Below are positions 47,109 to 61,811 of a stretch of DNA of 64,000 bases, in pieces (position 1 is the stretch's first letter; the number at the start of each line of letters is the position of its first letter). The notes below the pieces were generated by a model. The model saw only the letters and a program-made list of their open reading frames with translations. It ran no database searches and was not told where the DNA came from. Position numbers and translations under genes: made by a program. Source of the stretch: Nitrospirota bacterium. Its GTDB lineage: Bacteria; Nitrospirota; Nitrospiria; Nitrospirales; UBA8639. The DNA lies in the NCBI GenBank assembly GCA_003695915.1, contig RFGF01000041.1, positions 1 to 64,000 of the forward strand. Reading direction: 5' to 3'.

Positions 47109-47291
47109 CCGATACCGACCGTCATCCGTGCCATACGCACATCGGTGAGGATCGGCGCGCGAATGCTCCGCGCGGCGGCTTGTCTGACCGTTGCCATCTT
47201 GCTTTAGTTTTCTCGATCCGAGGCCGACAGTGATGTCTGAAAGGGCCCTGACGGACTTGGCCCTCGCCTGAATGTGAAAGGCCACCACGAC

Positions 47292-48518
47292 ATGCTCCCC
47301 TGTTCAGATGCCATGATAGGACAGACCGATTCACCGGACCATGTTCAGGAACCCTGGACGACCGCGACGATCCTCATCGTCGACGACGAGAAAACCGCTC
47401 GGATGATCACCCGGCGTCGATTGGAACGGTTAGGCTGTCGCGTCTTGGAGGTCGAAAACGGGAAAGAGGGATTGGACGTGCTCCGACGAGAGAATGTGGA
47501 TCTCGTGGTCTGCGATTGGATGATGCCGGAAATGGACGGTCCGAGCCTGTGCGATGCCATCAAGGCTGATGAGGGATTACGGTCCGTGTATGTCCTTCTC
47601 ATGACCGCTTTGGATCAGCCGGATCAAATCGCCGAGGGACTTCGTCAAGGCGCGGACGATTTTCTCGCCAAAACGGCCAGCGAACAGGAAATTGCCGCAC
47701 GCATCAATGCCGGTCTGCGTACCCGCGGGCTCATGAAACGATTGACGGACTCCTATCGGGTCATCGCTGAAAAGCAGGAGGAATTGGAAAGCGAGTTGCG
47801 GTCGGCCTCGGAATTTGTGGTCTCGCTGCTCCCGCCTCAGGGCATGATTTCGCCACGAATCGAACTGGGCTGGCAGTTCCTGCCATCCTCAAAATTGGGG
47901 GGCGACCTATTTCAAGTCGTGCAGTGGGATGAGGACTATTTGGGACTCATGATATTGGATATGTCCGGTCATGGGATCGGACCCGCCTTACGGGCGGTGT
48001 CGTTGGCGATGGCGTTTCGTCCGGAAATTGTCCGGCAACGCTCTGCGTCGTTCGATCCCGGCGACATACTGCAGGGATTCAATCGCGACTATCCCGTCAC
48101 CGATCAGGGAGAGTATTTCACGATGTGGCTCGGAAGCCTTCATCGTCCGAGCCGAACGCTTCGCTATGCCGCTGCTGGTCATCCGGCGGCGATTCTGGTC
48201 CGCGCCGATCGGTCCTTGGTGCGGTTAGGGGCGCAAACATGGCCGGTCGGATTTGGCGTGAATGAAGACTATGCAACACGCTCGCAGCAAGTCGAACCCG
48301 GTGATCGCTTGTATCTCTATACGGATGGTCTGTACGAAATATTTTCCCCATCGGACCACATGTGGGGCAAGGAAGGATTGGAGCATGCCTGTACGGAGGC
48401 TCATGAACAGCCGCTGCATACCGCACTGCCTTGGATCGTGGATCGAGCCCGCCATTGGCAACAACGGCAACTCTTTCGGGATGATGTGGCGTTGGTGGGG
48501 ATCGACATCCAAGCCTAA
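47292..48518 (+). CDS. Response regulator with PP2C-type (RsbU/SpoIIE) serine phosphatase output
   Basis: A 408-residue two-domain protein. The receiver (residues 25-145) has the VDDEK pocket, phospho-acceptor D75 (VVCDWMMPEMDG) and a lysine in LAKTAS. After a coiled linker, the phosphatase domain (about 190-405) has the metal-binding GGDLFQV and LDMSGHGIGPAL segments, LRYAAAGHP, LYLYTDGLYE and the last FRDDVALVG aspartates, so it should be active. Such proteins dephosphorylate STAS-domain antagonists. The likely substrate, a STAS protein, is encoded two bases downstream. Start is ATG 47292 or GTG 47274; AAAGG lies ten bases before the former. Confidence 0.9.
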   Translation: MLPCSDAMIGQTDSPDHVQEPWTTATILIVDDEKTARMITRRRLERLGCRVLEVENGKEGLDVLRRENVDLVVCDWMMPEMDGPSLCDAIKADEGLRSVYVLLMTALDQPDQIAEGLRQGADDFLAKTASEQEIAARINAGLRTRGLMKRLTDSYRVIAEKQEELESELRSASEFVVSLLPPQGMISPRIELGWQFLPSSKLGGDLFQVVQWDEDYLGLMILDMSGHGIGPALRAVSLAMAFRPEIVRQRSASFDPGDILQGFNRDYPVTDQGEYFTMWLGSLHRPSRTLRYAAAGHPAAILVRADRSLVRLGAQTWPVGFGVNEDYATRSQQVEPGDRLYLYTDGLYEIFSPSDHMWGKEGLEHACTEAHEQPLHTALPWIVDRARHWQQRQLFRDDVALVGIDIQA

Positions 48519-48520
48519 TC

Positions 48521-48912
48521 ATGGAGCACGCCGCGATGCTGATCACTGTTCGGCAACGGCAGCACATCGTGATTCTCGAATTGTCAGGGCGATTCGACTT
48601 TCGATCGAGCAAGCCGTTCCAGAACGCCTTGCTCGACGCTCAACAGGAGATGGCTCGATATCTGGTCATCGATCTGGCCAAGGTGTCGTTCATCGACAGC
48701 GCCGCGTTGGGATTGTTGTCCATGTGGCATACGCGATTACGTGAGGAAGGGTGCTGCTGCGATTGGCCGGTGCTACGGGATATGTGCACAAGGTGTTCGA
48801 GTTGTTTCGCATTGGCCAGTTGATTCCCACATATCCGACGGTGGAAGCGGCGATTCGTGCCACACCGGTCTGCAAAACGACCGAACAACCGGCGTCGACG
48901 GGAGCAAGCTGA
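48521..48912 (+). CDS. STAS-domain anti-sigma factor antagonist (RsbV-like), interrupted by a frameshift
   Basis: The first 77 codons (48521-48751) encode the front of a STAS domain, with LELSGRFDFRSS and the phosphorylatable serine S60 in VSFIDSAALGLL. After REEG the frame becomes a cysteine-rich run of nonsense-like sequence ending at 48823. The next frame, from GTG 48751, continues the fold exactly: VLLRLAGATGYVHKVFELF, then the typical IGQLIPTYPTVEAAI, ending at 48912. One extra G in the GGG run at 48749-48751 would restore a 130-residue protein. So this is a sequencing error, a decayed gene or a recoded gene. It sits between a PP2C phosphatase and a HATPase protein. Confidence 0.8.
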
Positions 48913-49871
48913 TGACCGCGAAAGCATCTTCTCCCCATATTTTGGTCGTGGATGACGATCCGCTCAACCGGCAGGTCCTCGCTGAATATCTCGAAGAGAC
49001 CGGCTATGAACTGATCGTCACGGAGCACGGGGCTGCGGCATTGGCTTATGTGGAGCAACCGGCAAACCGTGTGGATGCCATTTTGCTGGATTGGATGATG
49101 CCCGAAATGGACGGCATGGCGTTTGTCCGCCGAATGCGGGACATCGAGGCGAGACGATCGATTCCCATCATTATGCAGACGGCGCTCGGCGATCCGGACC
49201 GCATACGGGAGGGGTTGGAAGCCGGCGTCTTTTATTATCTGGTGAAGCCGTTTGGAGCGGAGATTCTCAAAGCGGTGGTCAACGCCGCTCTTCGCCGATT
49301 TCGGGAACATGAACGCCAAAGGCTGGATCTGGAGGAGCAGGCCTTTTCCCTGACGTTCATGGAATCCGCGACATTCCGCGTGCGAACTCTGCCGGAAGTG
49401 CATGCTGTGGCCCTCTTGTTGGCTAAAGCGTGTCCTGACCCCGATCGCATCATCATGGGCCTCACGGATTTGTTGGTCAATGCGGTCGAGCATGGAAACC
49501 TTGAAATCTCTTATGACGAAAAAACTCGCCTCCAAGAAGAGGAACGATGGGAAGCCGAAATTGAACATCGACTCACCTTGCCCCGTTATCGAGAAAAGTC
49601 GGTGACGGTCGACTTCGAACGCAAAAACGGCGAAATTCAGATCACGATTACGGACGAGGGCAGCGGATTCGACTGGAAACCGTACATGGAGTTGCAACCC
49701 GAAACTCTTGTCATGGGTCACGGACGAGGGATTGCTATGGCCAAGGCGCTGGCGTTCGACTCGATGGAATATCGCGACAAAGGCAATGTCGTCGTGTGCC
49801 GAATATCGGAAAGGGCTCTCCGCTCGGGAAGACCACATGACGCCGCTTCAACCGCAAGCATGTCCGGTTGA
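48912..49871 (+). CDS. Response regulator fused to RsbW-like HATPase (anti-sigma/serine kinase type)
   Basis: A 319-residue protein. The receiver (residues 8-125) has VDDDP, phospho-acceptor D60 (LLDWMMPEMDG) and KPF. The C-terminal domain (about 155-300) is a GHKL ATPase of the anti-sigma type: N-box TDLLVNAVEHGN, G1 TDEGSGFDWK and G2 GHGRGIAMAKAL. There is no dimerisation/phospho-histidine domain, so it resembles RsbW serine kinases rather than a histidine kinase. ATG 48912 overlaps the restored STAS stop, and GGAG lies upstream. With its two neighbours it makes a complete partner-switching set. Confidence 0.88.
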   Translation: MTAKASSPHILVVDDDPLNRQVLAEYLEETGYELIVTEHGAAALAYVEQPANRVDAILLDWMMPEMDGMAFVRRMRDIEARRSIPIIMQTALGDPDRIREGLEAGVFYYLVKPFGAEILKAVVNAALRRFREHERQRLDLEEQAFSLTFMESATFRVRTLPEVHAVALLLAKACPDPDRIIMGLTDLLVNAVEHGNLEISYDEKTRLQEEERWEAEIEHRLTLPRYREKSVTVDFERKNGEIQITITDEGSGFDWKPYMELQPETLVMGHGRGIAMAKALAFDSMEYRDKGNVVVCRISERALRSGRPHDAASTASMSG

Positions 49872-50181
49872 GAAGACTCCTATGCTCTCGCGCCTGGGCT
49901 CGACTCCTTGTCTGACAGGGAATAGAAACCGGCTTCCGTGCCTGCAGCCCAACCTATCACGATGCCAGATTTTTCGCGGCCAGGTCATGGCTCGGCTTGT
50001 ACTGCACCTTGGACGGTGATCGGTCTCTCGGCCATCCGACATCGGCGGAGAAAAATCCATCGCATAGAGCCGATGCCAGGCAATACGCAATGGATGCTTG
50101 TTTTGTTCGTGCACGTCGCAGGTGTGGATTATCTGTGAATCCTCTGGAAAACACCGAGTCGAGAAACTGTCGAGCGATTCG
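49872..50181 (+). other. Intergenic region before the histidine kinase gene
   Basis: A 310-base gap. Frames crossing it, such as the minus-strand one at 49848-50267, have no recognisable similarity and are arginine/cysteine/histidine-rich, as expected of shadows. No convincing promoter or terminator was seen. Confidence 0.4.
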
Positions 50182-51552
50182 ATGTTCTCTCGTGCCATGA
50201 ACCAATCGACGACGGTCCCACACACAACGCAAGCCGATCGCGAGACATCCGCTGGTTCGTCGACCAACGAGGGCGAACGGCAACCAATCGTACGTCTCGA
50301 CGGCGATCACGCACGGGATCTTCTTGATTGGATTTTTAACCATATGAACGAAGGGGTATGTCTCGTCGATGCCCACGGCAATCTCGTGATGTTGAATGCG
50401 CAAGCCGAACGTTTGCTGGGTGCGAAGGCCCAGGAACTGCTCCATCAATCCTTTGAATCATTGATCATTTCCGACGACATGGGTAGTGGCGAGAGTCCGA
50501 ACTCGGAGCCCGCATCTAGCCACACATCGCCTGCCGTCGGCCGCCTCCGAACCATGCGCCGTTTGGATGGACGGCCGATCCGTCTTCGTTGCCGACGACG
50601 ACCTGTGATATTGAGCTCCGGAGAGATGGGCGAGCTTCTTCTCGTTGATCCGCAGGAGGAAGCCATTTCGGGGCAGGATGGCACGGTGTCTTTTGCTCCC
50701 GTCGGCCAACAGCACGCTCCCCCGCCGTCATGGCCTCCCTCGAGGGATACGGTCGATCGATCCAAACGCATGCAGCTTCAGTTTTTAGCGAAAATCTCCC
50801 ATGAGCTCCGGACTCCCATGCATGCCATCCTGGGGTTCGCCTCCTTGGCGATCGAGAAGTGGGGACAGATTGCTCCGGAAACACTCCTGCGGTATGTCGC
50901 CTTGATTCGAGAAAGCGGAGACCGGCTCGTGCGACTGGTCAATGCGTTGTTGGATCTGTCCAAGCTCCAAGCGGGACACATTCATTTGAGGCTGGAGGAG
51001 ACGGATTTTCGCCCTCTCGTAGAGCAGGTGATTGTGCAGATGGAAAGCTTGTGGCGCGAAAACGGTTTATCGATCCGTTGGGAACATTCGTTGCCGACGG
51101 CCACGGTGACCTGCGATGTCGATCGCGTGACCCAAGTGGTCTGGAATCTGCTCTCGAACGCCGTCAAGTTTTCTCCACAAGGAGGCACCATCTTCCTTTC
51201 TCTCGTCGAGGATACGCTTCCTGCCGGACGACGAGAGGACGATTATGACTGGTTGCCCGCCGTTCGATTGTCGATCCGAGATCAAGGAGAGGGCATTCCC
51301 CCGAACGAGTGCAGCAGCATTTTTGATCCCTTTGTACAAGCATCCGGACACAATAGGTTCGTGAACGGCACCGGGTTGGGCTTGGCGATTTGTCGAGAAA
51401 TCGTCCTGGCTCATGGGGGGAAGATCTGGGCCGACAATCATCCCTCCGGCGGCACAATTGTTTCGGTCACGCTTCCGCAATGGATGCCTGGCTGGCTTCG
51501 CGACACCGGGTTCTCTTCCTCTTGTCCGCAAGCGCCCAAGCAGGATACTTGA
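50182..51552 (+). CDS. Soluble PAS-domain sensor histidine kinase
   Basis: A 456-residue kinase without membrane segments. A PAS domain at about residues 45-170 (FNHMNEGVCLVDAHGNLVMLNAQAERLLGA, in two adjoining parts) is followed by a variable linker. The dimerisation helix has H207 in FLAKISHELRTPMHAILGF. The ATPase domain shows the VWNLLSNAVKFSPQGG N-box, IRDQGEGIPP and GTGLGLAICREI. Initiation at ATG 50182 or 50197 is more likely than the earlier codon at 50098. Nearby receivers (47292, 48912, 35419) are possible partners, but no direct link is shown. Confidence 0.88.
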   Translation: MFSRAMNQSTTVPHTTQADRETSAGSSTNEGERQPIVRLDGDHARDLLDWIFNHMNEGVCLVDAHGNLVMLNAQAERLLGAKAQELLHQSFESLIISDDMGSGESPNSEPASSHTSPAVGRLRTMRRLDGRPIRLRCRRRPVILSSGEMGELLLVDPQEEAISGQDGTVSFAPVGQQHAPPPSWPPSRDTVDRSKRMQLQFLAKISHELRTPMHAILGFASLAIEKWGQIAPETLLRYVALIRESGDRLVRLVNALLDLSKLQAGHIHLRLEETDFRPLVEQVIVQMESLWRENGLSIRWEHSLPTATVTCDVDRVTQVVWNLLSNAVKFSPQGGTIFLSLVEDTLPAGRREDDYDWLPAVRLSIRDQGEGIPPNECSSIFDPFVQASGHNRFVNGTGLGLAICREIVLAHGGKIWADNHPSGGTIVSVTLPQWMPGWLRDTGFSSSCPQAPKQDT

Positions 51553-51850
51553 CCTGCACGACGATCTCCCGGCACGTATGTGAATCTTCTGGGTGTTCCA
51601 CCGTTAAGTTGGGAACTCCCGTTCCCGAAATGGTGCAGTATGGATGTCGCAAAGGACGACACGAGATCACCCCAACGTGCGCAACGGGTCGTTGCGCAGC
51701 AGTCAATCGCTTTTCGTCACGGTCAGAAAGCCGATATGGCGAGCTCGCTTCGGAGCTCTGGTGATCCAGCCATGACGAATGTCCTGCTCGAAGCGGAGAT
51801 CGGTGCCTGTTCTCTCTCGTGCGCTATTCGTGCGAGAACATGGAGCGCGC

Positions 51851-52120
51851 ATGTCGACCGTTGATGTGGATAGAGAGCGGCGGCGAATTATTCTGCGCGG
51901 AGGCGTCACCATATTCAAGGTCGCCGATCTCCACGAGGCGCTTCTTGCGCTTTCTCGCAATGACGCTCCCATCGACGTCGACCTGTCCGCCGTCGATCAT
52001 CTCGACAGTGCAGCCATTCAGGTGCTCTTGGTGGCTGTCCGGTCTGCCCCTGTGACCGTGTGCGGGTTGTCGCTGTCCGTGCGCAAACGCTGTCGAATGA
52101 TCGGACTCGAAACACTTTAA
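51851..52120 (+). CDS. Small STAS-domain protein (MlaB/RsbV-like)
   Basis: An 89-residue single STAS domain. The central IDVDLSAVDHLDSAAIQVLLVA contains S53 at the usual phosphorylation position; the N-terminal strand (RIILRGGVTIFKVADLHEAL) and the end (VRKRCRMIGLETL) fit the fold. ATG 51851 follows TGGAGC; longer frames upstream have no similarity. It lies just before the chemotaxis operon and may be an alternative or additional target of the PP2C/HATPase pair at 47292-49871. STAS proteins like this also occur at the head of chemotaxis clusters in other bacteria, where their role is poorly defined. Confidence 0.8.
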   Translation: MSTVDVDRERRRIILRGGVTIFKVADLHEALLALSRNDAPIDVDLSAVDHLDSAAIQVLLVAVRSAPVTVCGLSLSVRKRCRMIGLETL

Positions 52121-52206: not shown

Positions 52207-53349
52207 ATGGGTATGTCTTCTTGGGGAACGATGATCGGCGCGTTTGGAATCGGCGCCATACTGGCCTATGGATGGGAGCGCTGGCGATATCGCCAGCTGC
52301 TTCATCACCTGGAGCAGGAACGGGAACAACTGATTGCACAACAGGCGAGAGCCGAGGAGCCGTGGAAAGAATTGGCCCAATGCGTCACCGTGGTCTTACC
52401 GGTGCTGGTCAGTCAAGTCAAAGCGGTAATTGCAGAAACAGAACGTGCGGCTGCCTGCCTGATCGAACAATTCCAAGCCATTGCACGACGCGCCAAAGAG
52501 CAAGTCGATCAAACGGAACGGTTGCTCGTTCACCAAGATGACGATCATGACCAGCGAGAGATCGTGACCGTCGACCGCATATTAACGGTCACGCAAGAAA
52601 CAATGGAGATTTTCGTCAAGCAGGTCATGGCGACCAGCGAAGTGACGATGAATGCGGTCTCGGTCATGGAAACCGCCGTCGAGGCGACCTCACGCATTTC
52701 GCAAGTCGTCGAAGAGGTCGAGTTCATCGCTGATCAAACGCGGCTCTTGGCTCTCAATGCCGCCATCGAGGCCGCACGAGCGGGCGAACATGGACGAGGC
52801 TTCGCGGTCGTGGCGGACGAAGTGACTAAACTGGCGAATCGCTCAGGTCAGGCGGCAGATACCATTCGCGCGCTTGCCAATGATGCGACCGGCAGCACAC
52901 AAGGAGCGATGAGGCAAATGGAAGAGTTGGCCGCGATAGACCTGACAGAAACCATGGAAGCCCAACAGCGAATCCAGCGCATGACGAAAACGCTAGCGGA
53001 CAACAACGCGGCACTGCAAACCTCCGTCTCCGAGAGTCGGGATGCTGCCAGGACGTTGGATGAGGATATCTCGCGCATTGTGATGTCCATGCAGTTTCAA
53101 GATATTACCCGACAAAAATTGGAACATGTGTGCGTGCCGCTCGAACGTCTGCACGAGACGCTTCAGGTGCTGAGGGAACCCCATGCCGACAGGAACCGTC
53201 TTCGGGAAATGCTTGGACGCTTGCGCGATGTGGAGCAGTCGTACACGATGGAGTCCGAGCGCGAGACGATGAAAGCGGTTCGAAACGGGGAACGAGGAGA
53301 GTTCGTGGGAACCACGGCGCAGACCGATGAGGCCGTAACGTTGTTTTGA
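52207..53349 (+). CDS. MCP-like signalling protein with CheZ-like C-terminal motif
   Basis: A 380-residue protein with one short N-terminal hydrophobic segment ([17 protein letters not shown]) and no periplasmic sensor domain. The MCP hairpin tip is clear at about residues 170-205 ([33 protein letters not shown], in sequence). Near the end [14 protein letters not shown] (D299, Q303) resembles the CheZ catalytic motif, in which E. coli uses D143 and Q147 with the same spacing. The protein finishes with a flexible stretch and TDEAVTLF. It lies 88 bases before cheY. Best described as an MCP-family protein; CheY phosphatase activity is a hypothesis. Confidence 0.8.
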
Positions 53350-53437: not shown

Positions 53438-53809
53438 ATGAGCAAAACAATTCTTGTCGTTGATGATTCAGCGTCCATGCGCCAAATGGTGGGCTTTACC
53501 TTGAAGAGTGCGGGGTTCGACGTCATCGAGGCCGCAGATGGCGAGGAGGCGGTCAAGAAGCTGAACGGCGGAGCGACGCCCCACCTCGTTATTACCGATT
53601 TGAACATGCCCAATATGGACGGCATTGCCTTGATCAAAGCCATTCGGGGCATGGCTAAACATAAATTTACTCCTATTCTCATGTTAACCACGGAGTCGGC
53701 AGCAGAAAAAAAGAAAGAAGGACAAATTGCCGGAGCGACGGGATGGATCGTCAAACCGTTCCATCCCGAGCAAATGCTGGCCACGATCAAGAAAGTGCTT
53801 CCAGGATAA
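53438..53809 (+). CDS. cheY: Chemotaxis response regulator CheY
   Basis: A 123-residue single receiver domain. The acidic pocket is D9-D10, the phospho-acceptor is D54 (VITDLNMPNMDG), and the switch threonine (MLTTES) and lysine (VKPFHPEQ) are in place. It has no output domain. In CheA-type pathways it binds FliM when phosphorylated; FliM here has the matching N-terminal peptide. Start is ATG 53438 after GAGAGGGTGAG; a GTG at 53432 is less likely. cheA follows after 19 bases. Confidence 0.95.
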   Translation: MSKTILVVDDSASMRQMVGFTLKSAGFDVIEAADGEEAVKKLNGGATPHLVITDLNMPNMDGIALIKAIRGMAKHKFTPILMLTTESAAEKKKEGQIAGATGWIVKPFHPEQMLATIKKVLPG

Positions 53810-53828: not shown

Positions 53829-55931
53829 ATGGCAGTCGATCTCTCGCACTTTCAGCAAGCCTTTTTCGATGAATCCGACGAGCACGTGCAGACCATCGAG
53901 ATGGGTCTGCTCGAACTGGAGCAGCGTCCAGACGATTTGGATCTTCTGAACCGTATTTTTCGTGCGGCGCATTCCATCAAGGGCAATTCCGGAATGTTCG
54001 ACTTCACCGAGATCGGCTCGTTAACTCACAAGATGGAGAATTTGTTGGATGCGCTTCGGAACGCCCGAATGAGGGCCACACAGGACGTGATCGATCTCTT
54101 GCTCCAGGCATTGGATAGGCTCAAGACCGTGTTGGCCGCCACCCGACAGGGGAGCACGGTCGATCAAGATGCACTGAGGCAGATGGAAGAACAGCTGTCG
54201 GCATGCCTAGAAGGAGGATCTTCCGTGTCACAGGAGCAGACGGTCCCTTTGTCCGGTCGGGACGCCTCCTTGATGCCACGCGGGATGCGTCATGTGACGA
54301 TTGAGTGGACACCGTTACCCGAATTGTTTCAGCGCGGGCTCGATCCGGCACATGTGTTTCAAGAACTCCGGACGCTCGGCGAGATCCGGCAACTCGTTCT
54401 TCACCAAGAACGCTTGCCGACGCTGGCGGAGATGGATCCTGAACGCTGTTATTTGTCGTGGACGATCGAGCTCGAATCCGATCAACCGCTCCAGGCCATC
54501 GAACAGGTGTTCGAATTTGTGCGCGACGGAAGCGAACTGACCATCGCGGAACAACTTCCCGACAACCAACAGGGAGGATATCGCCGTCTCGGCGAATTGT
54601 TGGTAGAGCAAGGCGCCACCACACCGGAGTGTGTGGAGGCGGCATTAGCCAAACAGAAGCCATTGGGTCAGATCTTGGTCGAAGACCGGGCCGTCACCCC
54701 TCAGCAGGTCGATCGTGCGCTGGCCATACAACAACAAACGAAACGTGGCGAAAATGCGACGATTCGGGTGGATACGGATAAGATCGACAAATTGATCAAC
54801 CTCGTCGGGGAATTGGTGATTACCCAATCCATGATCGCCGATCTGAGCGAAAAGTTCACCATGTCGCAACTCCCGACATTGTTGGAACGGCTGGCCCAAT
54901 TAGAGAGGAACACGCGCGAATTGCAGGAACGGGTGATGTCCATTCGCATGGTGCCGGTCGGTTCGGCCTTTCAGCGATTCCCGCGTCTCGTACGCGATTT
55001 GGCCGCCAAGAGCGGCAAGCACATTCAGCTGCTGATGTCGGGCGAGGAAACGGAACTGGATAAAACCGTGATCGAAGCGATCGGCGATCCTTTGACCCAC
55101 TTGGTCAGGAATTCGGCGGACCACGGGCTCGAGACTCAGGAGGAACGACGCGCGGCCGGGAAAGCTGCGGTCGGCACGATCCGCTTGCACGCGTATCATG
55201 ACGGGGGAAGCATTTGCATTGCTGTCGAAGACGATGGGCGAGGCCTGAATCGCGGGAAAATTCTTGACAAAGCCATCGAAAAGGGACTGATCGCAGATGG
55301 CGACGGCCTCACGGATGAAGAGGTCTGGCAATTGATTTTCCGTCCGGGATTTTCGACAGCGGATCAGGTGACGGATATCTCCGGTCGCGGGGTGGGTATG
55401 GACGTGGTCAAGCGCAATATCGAGGGGCTGGGCGGCAGCATCGCCATTCACAGCCAGGAGGGCAAGGGGACACGGATGACGCTCAGGCTGCCGCTCACCC
55501 TCGCCATTATCGACGGCATGACCGTTCGAGTCGGCCGGGAGCATTACATCATTCCCTTGCTGGCAGTGACGGAATCCATTCGTCCGGCACCGCACGAGGT
55601 TCAAACCGTCGTCGGCAGAGGCGAGGTCGTGAACCTGCGCGGTGAATGGGTACCGCTGGTGCGGGTGTACGATCTATTCAAGATCGAACCAGAGTATCGC
55701 AATCCCGCCGAGGCGCTCTTGGTGATCGTGGATGTCGAAGGACGGCGATTTGCATTGTTCGTCGATGAATTGGTGGGCCAGCAACAGGTGGTCATCAAAA
55801 GTTTGGAACGCAACTATCGGAAGGTCGACGGCATTTCCGGCGCGACGATTTTGGGCGACGGCCATGTGGCGTTAATCCTGGATGTGCCAGGATTGGTGAA
55901 ATGTGCCAAAGCCGTCACAGCCGCTGCTTAA
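53829..55931 (+). CDS. cheA: Chemotaxis histidine kinase CheA with inserted tandem LG..L/AL..Q repeats
   Basis: A 700-residue kinase. The HPt domain (1-115) has H48 in FRAAHSIKG. A second domain at about 150-240 (VTIEWTPLPELFQRGLDPAHV onwards, broken here) is like that of many proteobacterial CheAs. Then two tandem repeats at 252-276 and 279-301 (RRLGELLVEQG..AALAKQ and LGQILVEDRAV..RALAIQ) resemble the MshEN half-repeats. Dimerisation (DKIDKLINLVGELVI), ATPase (HLVRNSADHGLE, EDDGRGLNR, GRGVGMDVVK) and the CheW-like regulatory domain follow. ATG 53829 follows GGAGGA. Confidence 0.95.
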   Translation: MAVDLSHFQQAFFDESDEHVQTIEMGLLELEQRPDDLDLLNRIFRAAHSIKGNSGMFDFTEIGSLTHKMENLLDALRNARMRATQDVIDLLLQALDRLKTVLAATRQGSTVDQDALRQMEEQLSACLEGGSSVSQEQTVPLSGRDASLMPRGMRHVTIEWTPLPELFQRGLDPAHVFQELRTLGEIRQLVLHQERLPTLAEMDPERCYLSWTIELESDQPLQAIEQVFEFVRDGSELTIAEQLPDNQQGGYRRLGELLVEQGATTPECVEAALAKQKPLGQILVEDRAVTPQQVDRALAIQQQTKRGENATIRVDTDKIDKLINLVGELVITQSMIADLSEKFTMSQLPTLLERLAQLERNTRELQERVMSIRMVPVGSAFQRFPRLVRDLAAKSGKHIQLLMSGEETELDKTVIEAIGDPLTHLVRNSADHGLETQEERRAAGKAAVGTIRLHAYHDGGSICIAVEDDGRGLNRGKILDKAIEKGLIADGDGLTDEEVWQLIFRPGFSTADQVTDISGRGVGMDVVKRNIEGLGGSIAIHSQEGKGTRMTLRLPLTLAIIDGMTVRVGREHYIIPLLAVTESIRPAPHEVQTVVGRGEVVNLRGEWVPLVRVYDLFKIEPEYRNPAEALLVIVDVEGRRFALFVDELVGQQQVVIKSLERNYRKVDGISGATILGDGHVALILDVPGLVKCAKAVTAAA

Positions 55932-55955: not shown

Positions 55956-56480
55956 ATGACGACGACAGTTGCCGAACCCGGTTTTCAACCGAGTGCCGAA
56001 CGCAGCGCAGACTGCCAAAAGGTCCTGACGTTTCAATTGGGGGAGGAATGCTACGGGATCGATATCTTGAAAGTCCAGGAAATCAAAGGCTATACGGCCG
56101 TGACCCACATTCCCAATTCTCCCCCATATGTCAAAGGCGTGCTGAACTTGCGCGGTACGATTGTGCCCATCGTCGATCTTCGCCTGAAGTTCGGGATGAC
56201 CCCTTGCGAACCGACCATGTTCACCGTCGTGGTCGTCGTTAACGTGCGGGAACGCGTGATGGGGATGCTCGTCGATGCGGTCTCGGATGTGTTGGAACTG
56301 GGGGAAGGCGACATTCAGCCGCCACCGGAACTCGGGGCGAGCGTCGATTTGGCTTTCATCGCCGGAATGGGAAATAGTCAGGATCGACTGGTGACGATTC
56401 TGGACATTGAGCGCGTATTCGCGGAAACCGACGCGACATCAGATGATTCCCTTCCAGGTTCCACTCGAGTCTCGTCATGA
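55956..56480 (+). CDS. cheW: Chemotaxis coupling protein CheW
   Basis: A 174-residue coupling protein. The CheW fold runs from about residue 20 to 160, with LTFQLGEECYGIDILKVQEI, IPNSPPYVKGVLNLRG, the TIVPIVDLRLKFG block and LVDAVSDVLEL. It joins receptors to CheA. The ends are slightly longer than average and rich in Ser and Thr. It begins 24 bases after cheA with AGGAGGAA upstream. Confidence 0.95.
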   Translation: MTTTVAEPGFQPSAERSADCQKVLTFQLGEECYGIDILKVQEIKGYTAVTHIPNSPPYVKGVLNLRGTIVPIVDLRLKFGMTPCEPTMFTVVVVVNVRERVMGMLVDAVSDVLELGEGDIQPPPELGASVDLAFIAGMGNSQDRLVTILDIERVFAETDATSDDSLPGSTRVSS

Positions 56481-56588
56481 GCGCAGAATATTTCGGACTA
56501 CCTCAGTCCATACGGACATGAATCGTCGATCCACGGCTGAACAGCATTGCCTGCACGGGTTCGTTGCAGCGTCGAAAAGGAGGATTAC

Positions 56589-59516
56589 ATGGATCAGGTG
56601 AAATTGAAATTTAATCAATGGGGAATCACCGCCAAATTGGTGATGCTGTTTGTGGTCTTCGGGCTGATGCCCATGGCGGTCGTCGGATGGATCGCCATCA
56701 TGGCCAGCCACGATATGGAAGAGGGAGTGGGCCAGAAGTTTCAAATTGCCGCAACGGAAATCGCCGACAAGATCGACCGGAATTTATTCGAACGATACGG
56801 AGATGTCCAGGCCTTCGGCTATAACGACGTGCTCCATCGCGTGACGCATTGGTACGACCCAACGGAAGCGAACGCCATCAGTCAAGTCATGAACAAATAT
56901 GTCGCCGCCTACGGCATTTACGACCTAACATTGTTCGTGGATACCCGCGGTGACGTGATTGCCGTCAATACGAGAAATGCCAATGGTCAGCCGATCAACT
57001 ATCGATTCCTCTATGAGAAGAACTATGCCGATGCGCCGTGGTTCAAGGCATTGGCCGAAGGGCGGTATACCACACGACAGCCGTTTACGGCTCCGGGCAA
57101 TGATGTCTCCACGGGCACGTTTATCGAAGACGTGCATATCGATCCCGACGTCAAGAAGGCCTTAGGGAACGACGGGTTGGTCCTCGGATTTTCGGCTCCG
57201 GTCTACGACGATACGGGAACAGTCGTGGGATATTGGAGCAATCGGGCGAACTTCTCGCTCGTCGAGGATATATTCCGGGAGGCGTATCACGCGCTCAAAC
57301 TCTCCGGATTCGCCGGAGCCGAACTGACCCTGCTCGACGGAGACGGGCGTGTGATCATCGATTACGATCCGGTCAGGGTCGGCACCGAAGATGTCGTGCG
57401 CAATTTCGATGTCCTGATGAAATTGAATCTCGTCGAAAAAGGCGTGGAAGCGGCAAAAGCCGCTGTCGCCGGACAAACGGGGTATATGAATGCATTCCAT
57501 GCCAGAAAGAAGATTATGCAGGCTTCCGGATTCACGCATCTCAAGGGCGCATTGGGGTATCCCGGCATGAATTGGGCCGTGCTCGTGCGGGTGCCGGAAG
57601 ACCAGGCTATGGCCGAGGCGTGGGCCATTCAACGAAAGGTGATGATGGCCGGACTGGTCTGCCTGGGCCTCATCGTTCCGCTCGGCTGGTATGTCGGCCG
57701 CACGGGTGCACGACGCGTGAAAGCCGTCCAAGAAGCGGCGGACAAAATGGCTGCCGGCGAATATGGGACACGCGTGGACGTGAAATCCCGAGACGAAATC
57801 GGTCAATTGGGCCAGGCGTTCAATCGCATGGCGGAGGAAATCCAACAGAGCATAGCCAAACAAGAGGAGAACGCAAGGCAAATGGCCAAAGCCAACGAAG
57901 AAATGTCGGTCCTCAAGGCAGCGATCGAAAACGCGAGCACGAACATCATGATCTCCGATGCTGACGACAATGTGATCTTTATCAACCATGCCGCGCATTC
58001 GACTCTCAAGAATCTTCAAGGAGAATTGGCCAAATACTTGCCGGGCTTTGATGCGGACAAGATCGTCGGCGGGTCGATTCATCGCTATCACAAAAATCCG
58101 GATGCCGTTCGGCAGATCCTGCGGGGGTTGGGACCGGGGGATGTGCGGCGTGGCGAGATTACGCCCGGAGAGTTTGTCTTCAAACATGCCACGCGCGGGA
58201 TCTTCAATGACAAAGGCGAGAAGATCGCCCATATTGTGGAATGGACGGATGGGACAGGGGAAATCAAGGCCTCTCGTGAAGTTCAACGGTTGGTCGAAGC
58301 GGCAGCGAACGGCCAATTGAACGAGCGACTCAATATGGACATTCTCGTAGGCAGCTTTCAAACGCTCGGCTCCGGGATCAATAAATTGATGGAAGCGGTG
58401 GTAACGCCGCTCACCGAAGCCCAACACGTGTTGAGTGCCATGGCGCAAGGGGATTTGACCCAGGAGATGACCGGTCATTACCAGGGGGAATTTGCCAAGA
58501 TAAAGGACAGCCTGAATACTGCCTTGGCCAATATTCGCACGGTAGTGCAGTCGGTGCGGGAAGGGGCCGATCACGTGAGCACGGCCGCCGATGAAATCAC
58601 CAAAGGGAATGAAGATCTGTCTCACCGGACATCCGAGCAAGCCAGTGCGTTGGAGGAAACCAGCGCATCGATGGAGGAAATGACCAGCACCATCAAACAA
58701 AACGCCGATAATGCCAAACAGGCCAATCAATTGGCCGTCGCGGCGCGGGAAACGGCGGAAAAAGGCGGCGAGGTCACCGTCAAAGCCGTCGAGGCCATGG
58801 GAGAAATCAACAAAAGCAGCAAGCAAATTGCGGATATCATCAATGTGATCGACGAGATCGCCTTCCAGACCAATCTCTTGGCGCTGAACGCCGCCGTGGA
58901 GGCTGCCAGAGCCGGCGAACAAGGCCGAGGCTTTGCCGTGGTGGCATCCGAAGTCCGAAATCTTGCCCAGCGATCGGCCACTGCAGCGAAAGAAATCAAA
59001 GCGCTGATCAATGAATCGGTGAGCAAAGTCAGCGCCGGGAGCGAGTTGGTCAACGAATCCGGTAAACGGCTCGAAGAAATCGTGAGTTCCGTCAAACGAG
59101 TGACGGATATCATCATGGAAATCAGTGCAGCCTCGCAGGAGCAGGCCAGCGGGATCGATCAAGTGAATAAGGCGGTTATGCAGATGGATCAAACGACGCA
59201 ACAGAATGCCGCATTGGTCGAACAGATGGCGTCGGCTTCGCAGTCCATGCGGCAGCAGGCTGCCGACTTGCTGCGGCAAGTGGCCTTTTTCAAGGATGGA
59301 AAGGAGCCGCAAGGCCGCGGTACGTCTCATGTTTGCGTACGAGGCGTGACCTCGGCCGATCGAGCTTCATCGCCAAGCGAAGGCGGGGGGAACCGGGAAA
59401 CGGCAGGGACGTCGACCTCGTCGCGTTCGATGCCTGTTCTCCAGTCGGTCGGCGTCGGGCAGGACAACGGCCATGAACGGCGTCATCGCGAAGATGATTT
59501 CTTCGAGGAGTTTTGA
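56589..59516 (+). CDS. Methyl-accepting chemotaxis protein with dCache-type sensor, HAMP and PAS domains
   Basis: A 975-residue receptor. Membrane helix 1 is at about residues 15-37 and helix 2 at about 350-372, enclosing a periplasmic dCache-like sensor. HAMP follows (about 374-426), then a PAS-like domain (about 445-575, [22 protein letters not shown]), a second HAMP-like stretch and the signalling domain with the [20 protein letters not shown] hairpin tip. Glutamine/glutamate-rich methylation helices flank it. After a disordered tail the protein ends in FFEEF, a form of the aromatic-x-x-aromatic pentapeptide that tethers CheR in some receptors. ATG 56589 has AAAAGGAGG upstream. Ligand unknown. 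Confidence 0.92.
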
Positions 59517-61202: not shown

Positions 61203-61811
61203 ATGGGCTCGAACGCGTTGATGGAATTCGGCCATATTCGACGCATGCGCGATAGGCGATTCCCCCACGAGATCGCGGTTATTATGCCGGGCGAATATTT
61301 CGTCAGCGCAACACCGATGATCGTGTCTACCGTGCTGGGATCGTGTGTTTCGGTGTGTCTGCGCGATCCGCTCGTCGGCGTGGGTGGTATGAATCATTTT
61401 ATATTGACGGAGCCGTCATCGCATTCATCTGCCGATGCCTGGATCGAATCCGGCCGCTACGGCAGTTACGCCATGGAACTGCTGATCAACGAAATCCTCA
61501 AGCGTGGTGGCCGAAAGCCGCGATTGGAAGCCAAGGTGTTCGGCGGAGGCCGCATTTATCAGGGAGCCACCGATATCGGGGCGCGGAATGCTGCCTGGGC
61601 GATCACGTATCTTGAGCAGGAAGGCTTGTCGATCGTGAAGGCCGATGTGGGAGATGTCTATCCTAGGAAAGTTTATTTTTTTACGGATACTGGCCGAGTG
61701 TTGTTGAAGAAACTCGACTCCCTTCACAGCCGCACCCTTCAGCGTGAAGAAGAACGGTACCGTTCCTCGCTTATGCAAGCGACGGTTGCCGGCGAAGTCA
61801 CACTGTTTTGA
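61203..61811 (+). CDS. cheD: Chemoreceptor glutamine deamidase CheD with C-terminal VTLF tail
   Basis: A 202-residue CheD, which deamidates receptor glutamines and in some bacteria also partners CheC. The catalytic cysteine is in STVLGSCVSVCLRDP and the histidine in GGMNHFILTEP; KVFGGGRIY and IGARNAAW are also conserved. The C-terminal 30 residues extend beyond the core and end in GEVTLF, the same last four residues as the MCP-like protein at 52207. No cheC or cheX gene is present. Start is ATG 61203, nine bases after cheR; ATG 61221 is possible. Confidence 0.92.
   Translation: MGSNALMEFGHIRRMRDRRFPHEIAVIMPGEYFVSATPMIVSTVLGSCVSVCLRDPLVGVGGMNHFILTEPSSHSSADAWIESGRYGSYAMELLINEILKRGGRKPRLEAKVFGGGRIYQGATDIGARNAAWAITYLEQEGLSIVKADVGDVYPRKVYFFTDTGRVLLKKLDSLHSRTLQREEERYRSSLMQATVAGEVTLF

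Follow-up and report, generated by a model that had tools for sequence, protein, structure and literature searches.

Could a protein that looks like a chemoreceptor carry the active site of a CheY phosphatase? The question is raised by P0001, the product of a gene here called X from a relative of Nitrospira, which lies in the 64,000-nucleotide window that we analysed (C69:1-64000, from contig C69 of a 3.7-Mb genome). On the sequence evidence we lean towards the view that P0001 couples a CheZ-type phosphatase for CheY to the signalling tip of a receptor, and that it is probably a second, array-linked phosphatase for CheY.

Architecture of P0001 and its gene cluster

Residues 146-291 of P0001 match the MCPsignal profile (PF00015) with 96.6 bits against a cut-off of 34.6, and no sensor or ligand-binding domain was found with the Pfam and NCBIfam profiles. 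The MCP hairpin lacking a sensor domain that a sequence-only reading had described was thus borne out, as were D299 and Q303 within FQDITRQ. The N-terminal hydrophobic stretch is weak and marks a putative membrane anchor. The AlphaFold monomer consists of long helices (mean pLDDT 77.6, pTM 0.36), with the helix 1 region in predicted helix H3-112. The YTMESER block near the C terminus has no counterpart in CheZ.

Features of P0001 and of the surrounding che genes. Positions are those of the window unless prefixed with C69
Feature	Position	Strand	Description and basis
P0001 (X)	52207..53349	+	Receptor-like protein, 380 aa, CheZ-like hairpin with an inserted MCP tip; translation, family alignment
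Helix 1, CheZ-like	52369..52542	+	Residues 55-112, antiparallel to the motif helix; kept in long and short forms
MCP signalling (kinase-control) hairpin	52642..53079	+	Residues 146-291; PF00015; missing from short Nitrospira orthologues
QFQDITRQ	53092..53115	+	Residues 296-303, CheZ-like D-x3-Q
D299 codon	53101-53103	+	
Q303 codon	53113-53115	+	
YTMESER	53242..53262	+	Residues 346-352, family-specific; Y, T, M, E and R 92-98% conserved
C-terminal tail	53326..53349	+	DEAVTLF and stop, same as CheD tail; VTLF-stop DNA pattern
STAS protein	51779..52120	+	Just 5' of X, first gene of the F7-like cluster; PF13466/PF01740
cheY1	53438..53809	+	Single receiver domain, presumed substrate; PF00072
cheA	53829..55931	+	Hpt, H-kinase_dim, HATPase_c and CheW domains
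cheW	55956..56480	+	PF01584, 137.7 bits
cheD	61413..61811	+	Domain start to stop, ends GEVTLF; PF03975, 101 bits
cheD tail codons	61797-61811	+	
cheY2	C69:68918-69301		F6-like set
True cheZ	C69:69350-69982		F6-like set; over the Pfam cut-off

The genes are arranged STAS-X-cheY1-cheA-cheW-MCP-cheR-cheD-cheB, and this content matches the F7 stage-1 gene content described in PMC7184735; the labels F6 and F7 are used here on the basis of gene order, not of a CheA tree. As the earlier reading had noted, X lies just before cheY, with cheY1 starting 83 nt 3' of its end, and a FliM within the window carries a peptide of the CheY-binding type, LSQEEVDALL. In an alignment to E. coli CheY, CheY1 keeps the K109 equivalent and has a Trp at position 106. 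Beside the cluster, positions 47274-51552 encode a partner-switch module composed of a receiver-SpoIIE phosphatase, a STAS protein, a receiver-HATPase_c_2 protein and a PAS histidine kinase. The MCPs of the cluster (56547-59516, and locus L038) end in FFEEF, the CheR/CheB tether pattern, unlike X.

The sequence-only reading had also argued that the operon encodes no CheZ, CheC or CheX. For the CheC/CheX/FliY class, another class of CheY-P phosphatases, this extends further than claimed: the genome as a whole lacks CheC and CheX, no member of the class is present, and P0001 has no Pfam match to a CheC-like domain with the ExxN motif. For CheZ it holds only inside the window. The region runs on past the window into a second, F6-like set, where a true cheZ with its own cheY lies 5.4 kb past the window end and 16 kb downstream of X; its product ends in DDILSKLGCK. 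A role of P0001 as a stand-in for a missing CheZ is ruled out by this true cheZ in the same gene cluster, and P0001 is a second CheZ-like candidate, in the F7-like set. A true cheZ is carried by 31 of the 32 genomes tested, so a phosphatase activity of P0001 is not obviously needed.

Likeness to CheZ and conservation of the D-x3-Q motif

Taken alone, P0001 scores below the CheZ family cut-offs (15.1 bits against 30.7 for PF04344; 14.4 against 350 for NF041271, the NCBIfam CheZ model). PF04344 matches members of its family with up to 25.6 bits (E 1.4e-5), and the short family members that lack the MCP tip are matched by NCBIfam Phos_CheZ in 18/18 cases (best 4e-5) and by Pfam CheZ in 12/18 (best 1.9e-4), all of them below cut-off. 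The HMM-HMM match to CheZ that the earlier reading had proposed looking for was found: hhalign of the long family against CheZ gave a probability of 82%, E 1.1e-5 and a score of 46.5. The score reached at most 24.6 in 100 heptad-preserving shuffles and 18.4 with a reversed alignment; ordinary MCPs of the same clusters scored 29.6, with the match lying elsewhere. When the octamer QFQDITRQ was masked, the score dropped to 25.2, just over the shuffle range, and most of the CheZ signal is therefore contributed by the motif helix.

The matches also hold in the opposite direction. Run against the 6528 ORFs of the loci assembled here, an HMM of the family C terminus detected 30 CheZs (E 2.5e-8 to 8.5e-5), and CheZ was its sole match in a Cupriavidus replicon (2.6 Mb) and in a Halomonas replicon (1.8 Mb), with E values of 1.9e-4 and 1.5e-3 in the two proteobacterial replicons. 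The best PDB match of the short-form profile was E. coli CheZ (1kmi), at a weak E of 0.42; both helices were aligned, helix 1 with helix 1 of CheZ. A Foldseek search of the short-form model against the PDB returned generic helical hairpins (best E 0.18) without singling out CheZ, and is uninformative either way. Judged from the profile comparisons, common descent with CheZ is strongly supported at the active-site helix, while for helix 1 the evidence is no more than suggestive.

The octamer was invariant in 30 aligned relatives, but the patterns used to fetch most of their loci included part of it. A set of 77 non-redundant relatives, assembled by profile, came partly from loci retrieved with patterns that included QFQDIT, while its genome-search members were found by profile A1 and not selected on exact letters; here D and Q were each kept in 72 of 75 sequences (96%), and I300 (65/75) and T301 (62/75) varied more. 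Variants include FHDITRQ, FHDISRQ, FQDVVRQ, FQDIVRQ, FQDRVRQ and FADIVSQ. In E. coli CheZ the counterparts of D299 and Q303 are D143 and Q147, which face outward. Burial of the pair in P0001 was looked for; hydropathy by helical phase placed both residues on the polar helix face, as in CheZ. The AxxFQ signature of CheZ (PMC7750401) precedes D-x3-Q in P0001 and in many relatives.

Conservation does not stop at the catalytic pair. Q296, F297, E306, H307, V308 and the YTMESER block show about the same degree of conservation as D and Q, indicating that a whole patch matters. This would also be expected if the CheZ-like face bound CheY or another partner without catalysis, serving as a docking or phosphate-sink scaffold that holds the F7 CheY at the array, with D and Q conserved for binding; the presence of a true CheZ fits such a role. 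However, the family keeps the exact catalytic pair at CheZ spacing while I300, T301 and R302 vary, and the pair persists in the form without the MCP tip, which has lost all the array parts. We regard non-catalytic binding as unlikely, though as the most serious competitor to the phosphatase reading.

The comparison with CheZ can be stated at the level of whole proteins. CheZ (PF04344; E. coli, 1kmi) is a helical hairpin similar in size to the one predicted for the short form, and CheZ and X have in common the AxxFQDxxxQ signature, a helix-1 pattern (I/L)PxxxxxLxxVxxxTExAA, a gene beside cheY and the polar placement of D and Q. Unlike CheZ, P0001 has an MCP hairpin inserted between the two helices, a putative N-terminal membrane anchor and the YTMESER block, and its VTLF tail replaces the CheZ C-terminal helix (DDLLDSLGF). 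Because of its sub-threshold scores and the lack of that helix we do not file P0001 as a CheZ member; to judge from its sequence it probably works like one. CheW-CheZ fusions of other Nitrospirota (L154, L157) similarly tie a CheZ hairpin physically to the array, but they do so through CheW rather than an MCP tip, and their CheZ domains are genuine ones that exceed the Pfam cut-off. These fusion proteins are ~417-436 aa long.

The family, its short form and the pairing with cheY

Relatives of X were found in Nitrospirota, in Geobacteraceae and other former Deltaproteobacteria, and in one Acidobacteria and one Delongbacteria bin; many are single metagenome bins, and the outlying taxa are to be taken with care. 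No relatives were found in a scan of viral contigs. Searches of plasmids by tblastn with P0001 or its C terminus gave no matches, but the MCP core was probably masked as low complexity and a control match began only past it, and we do not count this null result as absence.

Long forms of ~370-480 aa carry the MCP tip. In one Nitrospira clade the orthologues are only 165-224 aa long and lack both the tip and the N-terminal anchor, yet they keep the operon place directly upstream of the same cheY, both helices, D-x3-Q, the YTMESER block and the VTLF tail. The two forms align by hhalign with E 3.7e-39, the MCP tip appearing as a gap of ~173 residues, and the AlphaFold monomer of the short form is a helical hairpin (mean pLDDT 69.8). 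In the family tree the short forms fall together on one side of one branch (97/87), among long forms of several phyla. The simplest reading of these sequences is that the receptor part, anchor and MCP tip, was lost once in the Nitrospira clade; the tree is midpoint-rooted, and the direction of change is inferred.

Two further groups of proteins carry the motif. Proteins of ~600-740 aa from loci L212, L226, L228 (G115, G183) and L214/L227 (G240) each give two matches to the module profile; they contain FHDITRQ or FHDISRQ and, where read, end in DNIELF. They have no intact MCP tip but a degenerate MCP-like one (L226 was read over its full length), and their genes sit in the same cluster type, ordered X-STAS-cheY-cheA or X-cheY-STAS-cheA. 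A second X paralogue of 329-368 aa (L018, L030, L031, L032) has QFQDISRQ or QFQDLTKQ without the YTMESER block or the VTLF tail; in G004 it lies ~12 kb from X.

A single-domain response regulator directly follows X in 86 of 95 family loci, at a median gap of 68 nt. The search pattern overlooked at least two more among the other nine (L099 and L142), which were found by eye, so that the pair is conserved in at least 88 of the 95 loci.

Both the short form and this pairing are hard to reconcile with P0001 being simply an ordinary chemoreceptor of the McpA-like kind, in which the motif and tail would serve array assembly or a link between the F7 array and the F6 array, and coiled-coil convergence would account for the likeness to CheZ. 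The shuffled, reversed and ordinary-MCP controls also speak against convergence. What such an explanation does accommodate is the intact MCP tip, together with the association of McpA with F6 arrays in P. aeruginosa (PMC7184735) and S. oneidensis (PMC9855816); on balance we think it improbable.

We prefer the phosphatase reading on account of the two-way CheZ profile matches, the D/Q conservation, the MCP-less form and the constant pairing with cheY. The earlier proposal of a receptor-like protein with a CheZ-type site stands on these points and loses its missing-CheZ and tail arguments. The scheme starts from features read directly in the sequences, namely the conserved motif, the pairing with cheY, the form without an MCP tip and the sharing of the tail. 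Helix 1 (~55-112) would pair with the C-terminal portion of the long helix 2 (~280-323) in a CheZ-like hairpin, two of which may associate into a dimeric four-helix bundle that the MCP signalling tip would extend toward CheA/CheW. The outward-facing D299 and Q303 would dephosphorylate CheY-P, with CheY1 from the adjacent gene as the likeliest substrate, while the conserved tail (E/D)xVTLF would dock a partner common to CheD.

The C-terminal tail and McpA-like receptors of F7 systems

The acidic-hydrophobic end of P0001 had been likened to the CheY-binding tail of CheZ. This did not hold: the protein has no CheZ-type C-terminal CheY-binding helix (DDLLxxLGF type), and DEAVTLF is instead a tail common to CheD. 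The VTLF-stop DNA pattern occurs exactly twice in the 3.7-Mb genome, at the ends of X (53335-53349) and cheD. CheDs of Nitrospirales end in (E/D)VTLF or close variants; most other tested Nitrospirota CheDs end earlier. A Vibrio F7 cluster follows the same pattern, its McpA-like protein ending EGEVELF and its CheD DDDVELF. The sharing of the tail with CheD in both the P0001 genome and the Vibrio cluster makes a shared docking partner probable, and we propose docking of the X tail to that partner as a candidate interaction.

A Phe-terminated tail that follows a short C-terminal region could alternatively be a variant CheR/CheB tether like NWETF, akin to the FFEEF ends of the cluster MCPs, in which case the job of P0001 would be adaptation. 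The last five residues, A-V-T-L-F, have an aliphatic second position and do not conform to x-[HFYW]-x2-[HFYW] (PMC7184735), and P. aeruginosa McpA, with Val at the same position, binds none of four CheRs (Ortega et al. 2020, PMC7184735). The presence of the same tail on CheD also speaks against a tether, which would leave the D-x3-Q module unexplained, and we consider it very improbable.

McpA-like receptors (P. aeruginosa PA0180/CttP/McpA, V. cholerae VCA1088) resemble P0001 in their F7 cluster, the lack of a sensor domain, a C-terminal extension and a conserved tail whose final five residues include an aliphatic one in second place. They are F7-encoded, with a predicted transmembrane region and an unassigned heptad class, and are dispensable for the F7 array; their C terminus is highly conserved, with Val at the second pentapeptide position, and its role was called 'important yet unclear' (PMC7184735, Ortega et al.). 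P0001 agrees with this description. The comparison by sequence covers one Vibrio replicon, and PA0180 was compared by description only. The Vibrio member keeps D-x3-Q (ALQFTDIIVQ) and the tail EVELF; unlike P0001 it lacks YTMESER, has FTD for FQD and matches the family profile weakly. The gene order also differs, X lying between STAS and cheY in Nitrospirota. Going by its place, architecture and tail, we consider P0001 the probable equivalent in Nitrospirota of the McpA-like receptors (CttP/VCA1088) that belong to F7 systems. In the literature searched, which covered few subscription papers, we found no paper linking McpA-like receptors to CheZ.

A bolder extension, which we advance tentatively and with some doubt, is that the whole class of McpA-like receptors, from Nitrospirota through to Vibrio, consists of receptor-phosphatases, and that CheD, with its identical tail, competes for the docking site. 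If this were true, a CheZ hairpin and a receptor tip would be combined in one coiled coil, and the state of the array could set the removal of CheY-P as well as its formation. F7 clusters are described as carrying cheY and lacking cheZ (PMC7184735), and for Geobacter, whose genomes reportedly have no cheZ, the conclusion was that some CheZ-independent mechanism has to be at work (PMC2577667). The presence of a CheZ-type site in P0001 would address the cheZ-less F7 clusters, the case of Geobacter and the role of McpA-like receptors. The MCP-less Nitrospira form, a small soluble protein, is suited to a direct test. If the phosphatase reading is true, one receptor would both steer the kinase and end the signal.
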